A stretch of 64,000 bases of DNA, from positions 1-64,000 of the forward strand of contig NZ_NBXB01000001.1 in assembly GCF_003399635.1 (NCBI RefSeq). The letters run 5' to 3'. A program made the position numbers and the translations under genes. Below, in pieces: positions 23,264 to 30,264 of the stretch (the stretch's first letter is position 1; each line of letters begins with the position of its first letter). A model generated the notes under the pieces. That model searched no databases. It saw nothing but the letters and a program-made list of their open reading frames with translations, and had not been told where the DNA came from. Origin of the DNA: Subtercola boreus (GTDB lineage: Bacteria > Actinomycetota > Actinomycetes > Actinomycetales > Microbacteriaceae).

Positions 23264-23575
23264 ATGACTGCATTCGAACCCGATGTCGTGGCTGCCATCC
23301 TCTCCCACATGAACAACGACCACCCCGACGACAACCTCGTGATCGTGCGGGCCTTCGGTGCGCCGGATGCCGAACGGGCCGCCATGGTCGACCTCGACAC
23401 GGTCGGGGGCACGTGGACAGCGTGGCTGGTCCCCGAAGACGAGACGGTTCAGGTGGTCATCCCGTGGCCCGCCGGCACGATCGCCACCCGAGGCGAGGTC
23501 CGCCGGGAGATCGTGGCGCTCTACGACGCAGCATCCTCGGCCCTCGGTCTTCCTGCGCGCGACCACGTCGGGTAA
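23264..23575 (+). CDS. DUF2470 domain protein
   Basis: Encodes 103 residues: a free-standing DUF2470 domain, with HMNNDHPDDNLVIVRAFG near the start and VVIPWPAGTIATRGEVRREIV later. In HugZ-like heme-degrading proteins this domain is C-terminal and helps bind heme. Here it is followed after 29 bp by a heme oxygenase gene, so a role in heme handling is a reasonable inference. Start ATG 23264 is leaderless-type (TACGGT 8-13 nt upstream). Its stop codon lies inside the iron box of the next gene. Confidence 0.85.
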   Translation: MTAFEPDVVAAILSHMNNDHPDDNLVIVRAFGAPDAERAAMVDLDTVGGTWTAWLVPEDETVQVVIPWPAGTIATRGEVRREIVALYDAASSALGLPARDHVG

Positions 23576-23604: not shown

Positions 23605-24258
23605 GTGTCGAATGTGATCCCCTTCTCGCAGGCCCTCCGCGAGCGCACCTGGTCGGGGCGCGGCGCGAGTGAGAGCGCCGGGTTCATGACCGACCTCATG
23701 AACGGCAAGGGCAACCGCGACGACTACATCGCGGTTGTCGCCCAGCACTTCTTCATCTATGAGGCCATTGAGGCTGCCGCCGAGCGCATGAAGAACGACC
23801 CCGTGGCGGCATCGTTCATCTCACCGAAGCTGACGCGGCTGCCGGCGATCACCGAAGACCTGCGCTTCCTGATCGGCGACGACTGGGCGGAGCAGATCAC
23901 GCCGCTGCCGACGACAGCCCGTTACGTGGCCCGCATCAACGAGGTCGGGGCGACGTGGAGCGGAGGGTTCATCGCCCACCACTACACCCGGTACCTGGGC
24001 GATCTCTCGGGCGGCCAGTTCATCCGCACCCTGATGCAGCGCCAGTTCGGCTTCGAGACGAACGGCGTCGGCTTCTACCTCTTCGCCGACATCGCCGAAC
24101 CGCGGGAGTTCAAGGACACCTACCGTGCCCAGCTCGACGCCGTCGGCTGGAGCGACAACGAGCGCGAGCGTGTCATCGACGAGGTCGTCGCCGCGTACGG
24201 TTTCAACACCGACCTCTTCCTCGACCTCGCCCACGCGAAGGCAGTCGCTGCGGCCTGA
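23605..24258 (+). CDS. heme oxygenase family protein with Arg at the proximal ligand position
   Basis: Encodes 217 residues of the HmuO/biliverdin-producing heme oxygenase family. The early helix LRERTWSGRGASESAGFM aligns to the canonical TxxxH...E...FM, where His (20 in HmuO) ligates heme; here residue 19 is Arg (CGC). The distal helix GDLSGGQF (132-139) is intact. His48 on the next helix is a possible substitute ligand, but that is speculation. GTG 23605 has AGGAG upstream. The iron box and the DUF2470 neighbour support a role in heme iron acquisition. Confidence 0.85.
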   Translation: MSNVIPFSQALRERTWSGRGASESAGFMTDLMNGKGNRDDYIAVVAQHFFIYEAIEAAAERMKNDPVAASFISPKLTRLPAITEDLRFLIGDDWAEQITPLPTTARYVARINEVGATWSGGFIAHHYTRYLGDLSGGQFIRTLMQRQFGFETNGVGFYLFADIAEPREFKDTYRAQLDAVGWSDNERERVIDEVVAAYGFNTDLFLDLAHAKAVAAA

Positions 24259-24261
24259 CCC

Positions 24262-25536
24262 TCAGCCGCGGCGCATGAAGCGCTGCACGTTCGCGTCGAC
24301 GATGATGTCGGCCGGCCGGAGCGGTCTCGTCAGGTAGAGCCCCTCCAGGGAGGTGAGCCTGCTGAGTGCCACGTAGGTCTGGCCAGAACTGAACACCCGT
24401 GACCCGAGGTCGACGATCGCGGAGTCGTAGGTCTTTCCCTGCGACTTGTGGATGGTGACAGCCCACGCCAGCCGCAACGGGAACTGGGTGAACTCCCCCA
24501 CCACGTCTTTCGTGAGCTCCTTGCTCGTGGCCGAGTAGGAGTACTTGTACTTCTCCCAGCTCACCGGCTCCACCTCGTGCACGTCGCCGTCGACCTCCAC
24601 CCAGACGGATCCCGCGATCTTCGTCACCGTGCCGACGGTGCCGTTCACCCAGCGCTGCTCGGAGTCGTTGCGGAGGAACATCACCCGCGCACCGGCCTTC
24701 AATTCGAGGCTCTCGTCGGCCGGGAAGGTGCGGCCGGCGAAGTCACCGGAGACCTCTGCCCGAGCTGTCTTCACCGGGCCCTTCAACCGCTTCAGCGCCT
24801 CCGCGTTGATGCGGTTGACCGAGTCGTTGCGGGTCGCGAGGGTGATCGTGCCGTCATTCGGCGGCGTACGCGCTCCAGCACCGTTCAGAACGTCGGCGAT
24901 CTCCTTGGTGACCATGCCGTGCCGCACCGCATTCAGCATGAATTTGAAGTCGTCGTCGCTCTGCCGGTGGATCTCCGTCAGTTCGACGATGTTCAGCTGC
25001 GTCTCGCCCCAGACCTTCGCGTCGAAGAACCACATCGAGGCGTAGTGGTCGGAGAAGTACGCCCGTTCATCGGAGTCGCCCGGCACCGGAGCCAGCTGGT
25101 AGGGGTCGCCGAACAGCACCACCTGCACCCCACCGAAGGCTTCGAGCGGTCGTTGCCTGGCTTGTCTCAGGCTTCGGTCGATCGCGTCCATCAGGTCGGC
25201 ATTGACCATCGACACCTCGTCGATGACCAGAGTGTCGATCGTGTTGAGGAGCTTCCGCACCTCGGCGTTCTGGTCGATGTCGTGGTCGGCGATCACGCCG
25301 ATCGGCAGCCGGAAGAGCGAATGGATGGTCTGGCCGCCCACATTCAGGGCGGCGACGCCTGTCGGGGCAGAGATCACCAGTTGCTTCTCGGTGTTCCAGG
25401 CGAGATGGTTCAGCAGCGTGGACTTGCCCGTGCCCGCCCGACCGGTCACGAAGACGTGCTTCTTGGTGCTCTCGATGAGCTCGAAGACCCGCTGCTGCTC
25501 GGCCGAGAGCGTCTTTGCGCCGACCGGGCCACTCAC
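24262..25536 (-). CDS. PIF1-like ATP-dependent helicase/AAA protein
   Basis: Encodes 424 residues. Walker A GRAGTGKST (about 25-33), SAPTGVAALNVGG (motif Ia), Walker B VIDEVSM, motif III VVLFGDPYQLAPVP, and the C-terminal UvrD/RecD-like element AWAVTIHKSQGKTYD and SRLTSLEGLYL mark a superfamily 1B (PIF1/RecD2-like) 5'-3' DNA helicase. It probably acts in DNA repair or G-quadruplex/R-loop resolution; the specific role is unknown. Start GTG 25536 overlaps the stop of the CopD/CtaG gene as GTGA; the frame is open far upstream but that extension is a shadow. Confidence 0.9.
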   Translation of the reverse strand: MSGPVGAKTLSAEQQRVFELIESTKKHVFVTGRAGTGKSTLLNHLAWNTEKQLVISAPTGVAALNVGGQTIHSLFRLPIGVIADHDIDQNAEVRKLLNTIDTLVIDEVSMVNADLMDAIDRSLRQARQRPLEAFGGVQVVLFGDPYQLAPVPGDSDERAYFSDHYASMWFFDAKVWGETQLNIVELTEIHRQSDDDFKFMLNAVRHGMVTKEIADVLNGAGARTPPNDGTITLATRNDSVNRINAEALKRLKGPVKTARAEVSGDFAGRTFPADESLELKAGARVMFLRNDSEQRWVNGTVGTVTKIAGSVWVEVDGDVHEVEPVSWEKYKYSYSATSKELTKDVVGEFTQFPLRLAWAVTIHKSQGKTYDSAIVDLGSRVFSSGQTYVALSRLTSLEGLYLTRPLRPADIIVDANVQRFMRRG

Positions 25537-28032: not shown

Positions 28033-28338
28033 CTACCAGCTTGACTTCGTGATGCCCGGCAATTCGCCCCGGTGAGCCATCTCACGGAAGCGAACACGGG
28101 AGATCCCGAAGTTCGAGAGGTGACCGCGGGGACGACCGTCGACGGCGTCGCGGTTACGCACGCGCACCGGCGAAGCGTCACGGGGAAGCTTCTGGAGGCC
28201 CAGGCGAGCTGCCTCGCGGGACTCGTCGGTGCCGTTCAGGTCGACGAGGGCCTTCTTCAGTTCGAGGCGCTTGGTTGCCCAGCGCGCCACAATGACCTTG
28301 CGCTGCTCGTTCTTTGCGATCTTGCTTGTCTTAGCCAT
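28033..28338 (-). CDS. rpsN: 30S ribosomal protein S14, zinc-free form
   Basis: Encodes 101 residues ([14 protein letters not shown] ... [28 protein letters not shown]). The length is that of the long S14 form, and no Cys-rich zinc site (CxxC ... CxxC) is present. Part of the 30S head. Third gene after L28 and L33 on the same strand, starting 3 bp past the L33 stop. Such zinc-free sets are Zur-controlled in mycobacteria and streptomycetes; here no Zur box is seen upstream of the operon. Confidence 0.95.
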
Positions 28339-28341
28339 GTG

Positions 28342-28509
28342 TTACCGCTCCTCTCTGAAGTCGACGTGCTTGCGGATGACCGGGTCGTACTTCTTCAGCA
28401 CGAGGCGGTCGGGGTTGTTGCGGCGGTTCTTGCGGGTCACGTAGGTGTACCCGGTTCCGGCCGTCGAGCGCAGCTTGATGATCGGGCGTACGTCTTGTGC
28501 TTTAGCCAT
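28342..28509 (-). CDS. rpmG: 50S ribosomal protein L33, zinc-free form
   Basis: A 55-residue gene, too short for simple ORF calls. The protein starts [18 protein letters not shown] and contains [15 protein letters not shown] and ends HVDFREER; no CxxC zinc ribbon is present. The ATG at 28509 overlaps the L28 stop by one base (TAATG), so L28 and L33 are coupled. Stop TAA is followed by 3 bp and the S14 start. Confidence 0.95.
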
Positions 28510-28745
28510 TAGATCTTCACCCCACGAGCCAGGATGTCTTTGACGACAGACTCGATACCGCGGGCATCAATGACCTTGATGCCTTTGGCCGAGAGGGTCA
28601 GGTTCACGTTGCGCTTCAGCGACGGAACATAGTAGGTCTTCTTCTGCACATTCGGGTCGAAACGACGCTTGGTGCGTCGGTGCGAGTGCGAGATTGCGTG
28701 ACCGAAGCCGGGAACGGCTCCAGTCACCTGGCACACTGCGGCCAT
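28509..28745 (-). CDS. rpmB: 50S ribosomal protein L28, zinc-free form
   Basis: Encodes 78 residues with [21 protein letters not shown] and the C-terminal [17 protein letters not shown] typical of L28. The zinc-binding CxxC of the C+ form is reduced to a single Cys5 (CQVT), making this the zinc-independent type. ATG 28745 follows GGAGG. First gene of rpmB-rpmG-rpsN. A perfect 7-bp stem lies in its leader. Confidence 0.95.
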
Positions 28746-28763
28746 GATTTTCCTCCAATTACC

Positions 28764-28781
28764 GTAGAGCGGATGCTCTAC
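28764..28781 (-). promoter_or_regulatory. leader hairpin before rpmB
   Basis: GTAGAGC-GGAT-GCTCTAC (plus strand) is a perfect 7-4-7 inverted repeat, 18 bp before the rpmB start and immediately ahead of its Shine-Dalgarno. In the mRNA it would form a compact hairpin. It resembles the D-arm of a tRNA but the rest of a tRNA is absent. It may be a ribosomal-protein binding or stability element; not a terminator, as no T tract follows. Confidence 0.45.
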
Positions 28782-28919
28782 CCAAGTTCTCTTGTCGGCA
28801 TGAGTCACCCGAGACTCGCTGGGGCGCGCATACGAAGGCAGGCGGAGATACCGCCGACCAGCGACCCACACTAGCACCCCCTCGCGTACTCTGGTAATCG
28901 AGAGGATGGAAAGCGACTG

Positions 28920-29898
28920 GTGACCGTGAACACTCCCCGGAAGCCGGAGGTGAACGCCTACCGCCGCTGGTACTCGACCCTGCACCCCTCCCTCCAGCTC
29001 ATCGGCCTGCAACTGTGGCTGCCTCTCTTCTTCATCGTGGCGTTCTGCCTCTGGTATGTCGCCACTTTCCACGCCCCCATCCGCACGATGTGCCCGTCGG
29101 GATCGTCGGCGCCGCGCAGCAGTTCGTGTCCGACCTCGACCGCACGGTGCCGGGCGTCGTCTCGGTAGAGAGCCTGGCGACGGTCGACCTCGCCCCGCTC
29201 CCGCCCTACGACGAGTACGGCACCGTCTCGATGTACCTCATGCTCGCCTGGTGCATCGGCGGCTACATGGTGGCGATGTTCATCGGACTGATGGGGCGCC
29301 GCTTCGCCACAGGTCCCGGATGGCCGTGATCGTCGTTGGCGGAGCGCTGATCTCCCTTATCACCAACGTTCTCGCCGGCCCCGTGGTGGGCGCTGTCGGC
29401 GGGCACTTCGGCGCACTGTTCCTCGTCGCGTGGGGCTGGATCGTCGCGGTCGGCTTGGCCGTGAACGGGCTCAGCTACTTCGCCGGGTGCTTCATCGCGG
29501 TTCCGGCGATGATCATCTTCGTCTTCCTCTCGATGCCCTCCTCCGGCGCCGCGTATCCGTCATGGTTCATGCCGGAGCCCTTCGCGTGGCTCAACCACGT
29601 CGTGGTCGGTCTTGTGCTCATGTTCGTCGGCAAGCCGTACCTCGAGATCCTGTCCCGGCACGGGCTGCTCACCACGGACACGGGAACGATCCACACGATC
29701 TCCGCAGGCGAGCGGGAAGAACTCGACGAGCCCACCACCGCGAGCATGCTCCTCGGCACCCCAGGGGGGCTCGAGCCCGAACTCCCCGACGATCGGCAGA
29801 ACCCGCATGGTCCGCATGGTCCGCAGGGTCCGCAGGGCCGGCAGAGTCCGCGGGTGAAGCCGGCTCAGTCCACCGTCGGCACGCACGCGGAGCAGTAG
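28920..29898 (+). pseudogene. DUF3533-like multi-pass membrane protein, twice frameshifted
   Basis: Three overlapping reading frames together give one YhgE/DUF3533-like protein: an N-terminus from GTG 28920 (TM near [20 protein letters not shown]), a middle part ([17 protein letters not shown], ending in a TM) and a C-terminus with four more segments and the tail. The first shift is at 29075-29090, in or next to a run of C (gccccca); the second at 29315-29325, near CCC. Two indels indicate a decayed gene or sequencing errors in short homopolymers. Near the end, five 9-bp repeats encode GPHGPHGPQGPQGRQ-like residues. Ends overlap the convergent zur gene by 34 bp. Confidence 0.7.
29803..29847 (+). 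repeat. 9-bp tandem repeat, collagen-like Gly-Pro tail
   Basis: Five copies of a CCGCATGGT/CCGCAGGGT-type unit (two exact pairs and one diverged) lie in the C-terminal tail of the broken membrane protein and encode Gly-Pro-His/Gln triplets. Confidence 0.75.
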
Positions 29899-30254
29899 CC
29901 GAACACATCGACGACGTGCTCGGCCTGTGAGAAGCCGTGCAGGGCCGCGACGCTCTTCGCCCACTGCTCCACGTCGTCAGCCTCGATTTCGACGGCGAGT
30001 CCGCAGCCGCGGCAGATCAGATGGTGGTGGTGGCCCGTCGAGCACGCCCGGTAGAGGCTCTCGCCCTCGGGCGACTGCAGAGAGTCGGCCTCTCCCTCTG
30101 TGGCGAGGTCCCCGAGGGCGCGGTACACCGTGGCAAGACCGATCTGCGAGCCGGTTCCCTTGAGGTTCGAGTGCAGGTCCTGGGCGCTGACGAAGCCCAT
30201 CTGGGTGCCGAGGGCTGTGCGCACGGCCTCACGCTGCCAGGTGTTCCGCTTCAT
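29865..30254 (-). CDS. zur: Fur family regulator, probably Zur
   Basis: Encodes 129 residues: an N-terminal winged helix (LATVYRALGDLATEGEAD) and a metal domain with HHHHLICRGCGLAVEIE and GYCSACV (two CxxC pairs for the structural zinc). It lies directly downstream of the znu genes on the same strand, which argues for zinc sensing. The start is ATG 30254 with AGGAG 6-7 nt upstream; an upstream GTG at 30260 is also open. Zinc-bound Zur represses the transporter. The leader contains a duplicated 18-bp unit. Confidence 0.88.
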   Translation of the reverse strand: MKRNTWQREAVRTALGTQMGFVSAQDLHSNLKGTGSQIGLATVYRALGDLATEGEADSLQSPEGESLYRACSTGHHHHLICRGCGLAVEIEADDVEQWAKSVAALHGFSQAEHVVDVFGYCSACVPTVD

Positions 30255-30264
30255 CGCCACTCCT

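Follow-up and report, generated by a model that had tools for sequence, protein, structure and literature searches.

Recurrent loss of the proximal heme-ligand histidine from heme oxygenase-family proteins of Microbacteriaceae

In Microbacteriaceae, the proximal histidine of heme oxygenases has disappeared on three to five separate occasions, and one of these losses, to arginine, is found in a gene of Subtercola boreus located in the 64,000-nucleotide stretch of contig NZ_NBXB01000001.1 analyzed here (hereafter, the window; Table 1). On balance, we lean towards the interpretation that, in this gene, an iron-regulated heme oxygenase has been turned, naturally and recently, into a pseudo-heme-oxygenase, which would bind a tetrapyrrole rather than degrade it.

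Table 1. Coordinates of the features discussed in the text (positions in the window)
Feature	Position	Strand	Remarks
DUF2470 (DRI) gene, directly upstream of the heme oxygenase gene	23264..23575	+	PF10615, E 9e-16
Iron box (DtxR/IdeR-like) TAAGGTAAGGGCAACCTAA	23573..23591	+	Overlaps the DUF2470 stop codon
Heme oxygenase-family gene without the proximal His	23605..24258	+	GTG start, 217 aa; PF01126, E 3e-54
Codon 19, CGC (Arg), heme-ligand position	23659..23661	+	Aligned to HO-1 His25; CAC in sister G347
Codon 23, Glu, retained in the window	23671..23673	+	Asp and Gly in the Gln and Glu relatives, respectively
Codon 44, Val (GTT), aligned to HO-1 residue 50	23734..23736	+	His-type genes: Leu 119/121, Met 2/121
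Codon 48, His, candidate ligand of the sequence-only reading	23746..23748	+	Clade of 30: His 22, Asn 8
GDLSGG distal-helix motif, intact, residues 132-137	23998..24015	+	Sequence
Codon 201, Asn, retained in the window	24205..24207	+	Thr/Ser in 31 His-less genes outside Subtercola
PIF1-like helicase gene (named from sequence reading), downstream neighbor, synteny marker	24262..25530	-	

The window gene and its iron box

The product of the window gene matches the PF01126 Heme_oxygenase profile with 184 bits (cut-off, 23) over residues 7-206 and is the only PF01126 match in the 3.85 Mb genome; a comparison with NCBIfam yielded no match. Residue 19 aligns without gaps to residue 25 of human HO-1, a position occupied by His in wild-type chains and by Arg in deposited structures of the H25R mutant, so that a sequence-only reading of this stretch had located the missing heme ligand correctly. 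The same reading considered the rest of the family pattern to be intact, and this is indeed the case: in addition to the profile match and the GDLSGG motif, the equivalents of Asp140, Arg136, Tyr134 and Tyr58, namely D133, R129, Y127 and Y52, are all present. With zero internal stops in its frame, the gene does not resemble a pseudogene, for which stops, frameshifts or dN/dS near 1 would be expected.

The AlphaFold2 model of the window protein displays TM scores of 0.87-0.92 to HO-1, HO-2 and HmuO chains. Its first structural matches are the H25R mutant of human HO-1 in biliverdin-free and biliverdin-bound form (PDB 4wd4 and 5btq, the latter described in its title as H25R crystallised with biliverdin bound), practically level with wild-type HO-1. 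The proximal segment is predicted to form a single helix (residues 7-23), whereas in the model of a member of the His-less clade described below, built with 12 sequences behind it and with a pLDDT of 67 in the proximal block, a helix covering residues 7-16 is followed by a loop to residue 24. The best structural matches of the latter model are heme oxygenases as well.

A strong iron box had also been proposed to control the gene, and such a box was recovered immediately upstream. It differs at 2 positions from a DtxR/IdeR consensus; it is the sole match with 3 or fewer mismatches in the 64 kb, and 100 shuffles gave 0 matches. Iron boxes with at most 4 mismatches precede 33 of the 34 His-less genes of the family and 78 of the 119 His-type genes for which enough upstream sequence was available, with shuffled upstream sequence giving 9 mismatches on average. 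In a separate part of the window (28033-30260), ORFs resembling ribosomal proteins (L28 among them) are grouped with ORFs resembling a metal ABC transporter permease and a Fur-family protein, an arrangement that may represent a zinc-limitation cluster.

Comparison with Subtercola relatives

The nearest named relative of the window genome is Subtercola boreus P27444. The heme oxygenase of the sister species (G347) is 98.6% identical at the protein level and has His (CAC) at codon 19; the two genes are separated by 3 amino-acid changes (H19R, L44V and D185N) and 25 synonymous codon changes. Because CAC and CGC are one transition apart and the nearest relative carries CAC, the Arg codon might be regarded as a sequencing or assembly error. 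However, two congeneric species also depart from His at this column, S. boreus P27979 with Gln (CAG) and Subtercola sp. Z020 with Glu (GAG; this protein also carries GDLSGS), 31 further genes are His-less, and the window protein bears another unusual replacement, of Leu44 by Val, which required two base changes. Judging from these comparisons, an error at codon 19 is unlikely, and we give it very little weight.

The first comparison set comprised 110 loci, with the window genome included and some species represented twice, and contained 90 distinct sequences. At column 19, His was present in all 87 sequences other than the Arg, Gln and Glu proteins of Subtercola. Among the 80 columns invariant in these 87 His-type sequences, the Arg, Gln and Glu proteins have 2, 4 and 5 breaks, respectively, compared to a mean of 0.16 and a maximum of 2 for His-type sequences, and 8 of the 11 breaks fall at positions 19, 22, 23 and 137. 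The window protein retains Ser22, Glu23, Gly137 and Asn201 beside Arg19. It thus looks like the earliest stage observed, with Arg in place and most pocket residues as well as the DUF2470 gene retained.

Recurrent loss of the histidine in Microbacteriaceae

PF01126 matches were present in 239 of 398 genomes, and the better-scoring ones, 155 genes from 154 Microbacteriaceae genomes, were read; weaker matches, second copies, L296 (a duplicate of L030) and repeats among L187-L216 were left out of the census. A gene was considered His-less if residues 15-28 of its product included no His. By this definition, 121 of the 155 heme oxygenases are His-type and 34 are His-less. The latter are distributed over 7 genera: Subtercola (g1, 3 of 10 genes), g5 (7 of 7), g34 (9 of 9), g35 (5 of 5), g45 (8 of 9), g68 (1 of 3) and g84 (1 of 1). 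Thus, inspection of this column across the family, which the sequence-only reading had recommended, revealed a recurrent loss rather than a peculiarity of one gene. In an order-level sample of 155 genomes with a match, from which 70 genes were read, His was found in 70 of 70, including all 61 genes from outside Microbacteriaceae. Hence, within the order sample, the loss of His is confined to Microbacteriaceae.

In a heme oxygenase tree built without columns 15-28, 137 and 201, 30 of the 34 His-less genes formed one clade (bootstrap 81), whereas the gene of G185 and the three Subtercola genes were placed separately. A single origin for all His losses is therefore rejected. The number of losses is given as three to five because G185 sits on a very long branch (1.0) whose placement has weak support (75), and because one gene tree pairs the Gln and Glu species of Subtercola as sisters whereas another separates them.

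The His-less gene lies beside the PIF1-like helicase gene, as the His-type gene does, in 3 of 3 Subtercola and in 8 of the 10 other His-less loci fetched; both exceptions belong to g34. Given that His-less and His-type genes occupy the same locus, paralogy is an unlikely source of the His-less genes for most genera. Furthermore, in 32 of the 34 His-less genomes, the His-less gene is the sole PF01126 match; a second match was identified in G383 (contig 1, 1408517-1409098; strong) and in G318 (contig 1, 85554-86096; weak).

Some His-less loci have additional neighbors. In one g34 locus (L299, 3410-5841), the gene is found near genes for ALAD (hemB) and a class-III aminotransferase resembling hemL; a second g34 locus (L307) contains other genes in place of the hemB/hemL-like pair. 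A gene for a small membrane protein, DUF4383 (PF14325), is located upstream of the heme oxygenase gene in two His-less genera (L297, 6384-6794; L298, 5290-5799), and similar ORFs occur in further genera.

Loss of the DUF2470 partner

In Actinomycetota, the genes for single-domain DUF2470 (DRI) proteins and for heme oxygenase often share a putative operon, according to an excerpt of a study of these proteins (PMC11014987). The DUF2470 gene is present in 7 of the 12 Subtercola genomes, namely, the six with a His-type heme oxygenase and the window genome, and is absent in the Gln and Glu species, in which the intergenic stretch fits the iron box only. Family-wide, 111 of 120 His-type genomes carry DUF2470, versus 1 of 34 His-less genomes, the one being the window genome (Fisher p 3e-24, uncorrected for relatedness). 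When events were placed on the heme oxygenase tree, His was lost 5 times and DUF2470 9 times, and 4 of the 5 His-loss branches coincided with a DUF2470 loss (3 of 4 should the Gln and Glu changes be one event). In 200,000 random placements, four coincidences occurred 0 times and three or more at a frequency of 0.0007.

The nine His-type genomes without DUF2470 (five g55 genomes, G284, G008, G354 and G118) indicate that some lineages can do without the partner. Nevertheless, most genomes with the His have DUF2470 and all but one of the His-less genomes lack it, suggesting that DUF2470 serves heme cleavage or its products; the co-occurrence pattern thus constitutes an evolutionary test for this partner. 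Compared with its counterpart in the sister species, the window DUF2470 gene has 7 nonsynonymous and 6 synonymous codon changes, as against 3 and 25 for the heme oxygenase gene, and was perhaps relaxed after the change to Arg. The DinB gene near the window heme oxygenase gene evolved equally fast (14 nonsynonymous and 16 synonymous changes relative to the sister).

Selection on the His-less genes

Using a codon model with 14 species on a fixed tree, in which the Gln and Glu species were set as sisters, we estimated omega at 0.032 on the background branches, 0.021 on the window branch and 0.041 on the Gln/Glu branches; these Subtercola values average the time before and after the loss of His, and the short window branch is weak evidence on its own. 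The fit was not improved by separate omegas over one ratio (lnL -4194.3 versus -4194.8), whereas omega fixed at 1 on the His-less branches was rejected (lnL -4294.3 versus -4194.6). Inside the His-less genera, omega was 0.035 (g45), 0.083 (g5), 0.032 (g34) and 0.074 (g35), and in three His-type genera it was 0.027, 0.013 and 0.034. Thus, the His-less genes are under strong purifying selection, with the iron box and the distal pocket kept, and a pseudogene is not supported. The impression gained from the letters of the window, that the gene looks selected, is accordingly upheld.

A related scenario is recent inactivation, by which the window enzyme would be left without function and its gene would be heading for loss. 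In its favor, G286 and G248, both single-contig Subtercola genomes (98% and 96% complete, respectively), lack the heme oxygenase as well as the DUF2470 gene, and the slot between their DinB and PIF1 genes (L136 and L137, respectively) is filled by an alpha/beta-hydrolase-like ORF, named from sequence reading; G398 (88% complete) also lacks both genes. Moreover, all 12 Subtercola genomes carry an EfeB-type gene, so that heme oxygenase may be dispensable, and the ratio of nonsynonymous to synonymous changes in the window DUF2470 gene would fit decay. Considering, however, that the frame is open, that the iron box is intact and that omega is low both on the short window branch and in the four His-less genera, we regard impending loss as improbable.

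The remodeled pocket and candidate replacement ligands

Ten residues, R12, Y52, E56, H125, Y127, R129, G132, D133, G136 and R174, are constant in 30 of 30 members of the His-less clade. They align to HO-1 residues K18, Y58, E62, H132, Y134, R136, G139, D140, G143 and R183, some of which have roles in the pocket. Other positions changed. Residue 137, which closes the GDLSGG motif, is Gly in every one of the 121 His-type proteins; among the 34 His-less proteins it is Cys in 18, Gly in 15 and Ser in 1 (loci with GDLSGC include L157, L153, L171 and L166). Similarly, residue 201 is Asn in all 121 His-type proteins and Thr in 25, Ser in 6 and Asn in 3 of the 34 His-less proteins, the last being the three Subtercola. 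In the older His-less cases, residues 22, 23, 201 and often 137 are changed, and the former His-bearing segment of the clade contains both insertions and deletions. None of the changes at 22, 23 and 201 by itself marks lost activity, since all of them occur in His-type genes too: 10 of the 121 His-type proteins of Microbacteriaceae do not have Ser at 22 and 6 do not have Glu at 23, and Ala or Ser occupies position 201 in 11 of the 70 His-type genes of the order sample, these 11 being from outside Microbacteriaceae.

His48, suggested earlier as the nearest replacement ligand, is present in the window, Gln and Glu proteins, but it is equally usual in His-type proteins (111 of 121); within the clade it gives way to Asn in 8 of 30 members, and G185 has Tyr. 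From its distribution, His48 is unlikely to be a general substitute ligand, although it may serve as one in the window protein itself. A search for a newly gained common ligand (Cys, His, Met or Tyr) in the clade found none present in at least 24 of 30 members that was not also usual in His-type proteins. Cys137, which would lie at the heme face, could act as a ligand or as a covalent anchor.

These data bear on the possibility that the His-less proteins are still heme-degrading enzymes that use another axial ligand: water or hydroxide, a small base or, for some clade members, the Cys137 of GDLSGC. The complete retention of the ten distal and pocket residues exceeds what binding alone might require and keeps this explanation alive. 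The iron box of 33 His-less genes, the 32 genomes with no second PF01126 match and the presence of Cys137 in 18 of 34 His-less versus 0 of 121 His-type proteins are likewise consistent with it, as is a title cited in the excerpted text of PMC5623701, according to which exogenous bases restore activity to HO-1 His25Ala. Conversely, Cys137 is missing in 16 of the 34 His-less proteins, a clade-specific His, Cys, Met or Tyr was not detected at the above threshold, the old His segment carries indels and is predicted, with modest confidence, to form a loop in one clade member, and human HO-1 H25A is inactivated, as stated in an excerpt (PMC5623701). Overall, catalysis with an alternative ligand appears rather unlikely, while retaining appreciable weight.

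Discussion

For the window protein, we thus lean towards tetrapyrrole binding in place of degradation. Given that HO-1 H25A is inactive and that Arabidopsis HO2, with Arg for the His, has undetectable activity (excerpt of PMC11634067), little or no normal heme cleavage is expected; the Plasmodium heme oxygenase, without the His, does not degrade heme either (same excerpt). Normal cleavage would have been lost with the proximal ligand, whereas a tetrapyrrole, be it heme, porphyrin or biliverdin, would still enter the pocket via the retained residues. Such binding is plausible given these residues and the solved HO-1 H25R-biliverdin complex. Under iron limitation, the protein may then buffer, carry or sense heme or porphyrin. 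Supply of biliverdin for a phytochrome was considered as an alternative purpose and dismissed, as a PHY-domain match is absent from the 12 Subtercola genomes; this absence, together with the finding that 32 of the 34 His-less genomes contain no further PF01126 match, led us to choose an iron-regulated heme or porphyrin binder. The window gene would represent the first step, with Arg in place and DUF2470 and most pocket residues remaining.

A broader proposal, which we put forward only tentatively, is that Microbacteriaceae harbor a class of iron-regulated, DUF2470-free proteins of the heme oxygenase fold which work without the proximal His in a rebuilt pocket (Asn201 replaced by Thr or Ser and, often, Cys at Gly137). 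If true, a new mode of tetrapyrrole binding or of chemistry on this fold would have been reached several times, with its birth visible in Subtercola.

In an excerpt of a published survey (PMC5623701), the proximal His is described as fully conserved across all heme oxygenases. The 34 of 155 Microbacteriaceae genes read contradict full conservation, and yet are intact and selected. His-less heme oxygenases are already known from plants and malaria parasites, as related in an excerpt of PMC11634067. Among the literature matches listed for heme oxygenases of the pseudo or inactive kind, and for the enzyme in combination with Subtercola or other Microbacteriaceae, the bacterial group described here was not reported, subscription journals being mostly outside the search. 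With near-identical His and natural Arg, Gln and Glu proteins at hand, the function of pseudo-heme-oxygenases becomes testable in free-living bacteria.

Compared with canonical heme oxygenases (HmuO of Corynebacterium diphtheriae and human HO-1), the window protein is alike in profile, predicted fold, distal GDLSGG and pocket residues, and differs by Arg19 in place of the proximal His. As in the DRI-heme oxygenase pairs of Actinomycetota (PMC11014987), a single-domain DRI gene is located directly upstream; the excerpt of that study makes no mention of a joint loss of the DRI partner and the His. With pseudo-heme-oxygenases of the plant HO2 and PfHO kind, the window protein shares a predicted heme oxygenase fold without the His ligand and a gene kept under selection. 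PfHO of Plasmodium falciparum likewise lost the His while the gene was retained, but, as excerpted from PMC11634067, it carries Lys-Glu for the distal Gly-Gly and has distant homology only, whereas the distal motif of the window protein is intact and its His-type sister is nearly identical. Arabidopsis HO2 is closer in having Arg for the equivalent His (excerpt of PMC11634067), but accompanies three active heme oxygenases; the window protein is bacterial, is preceded by an iron box and is the sole PF01126 match of its genome. Finally, the human HO-1 H25R mutant (PDB 4wd4 and 5btq) has the identical substitution at the identical position; there it was engineered, whereas in Subtercola it is natural.
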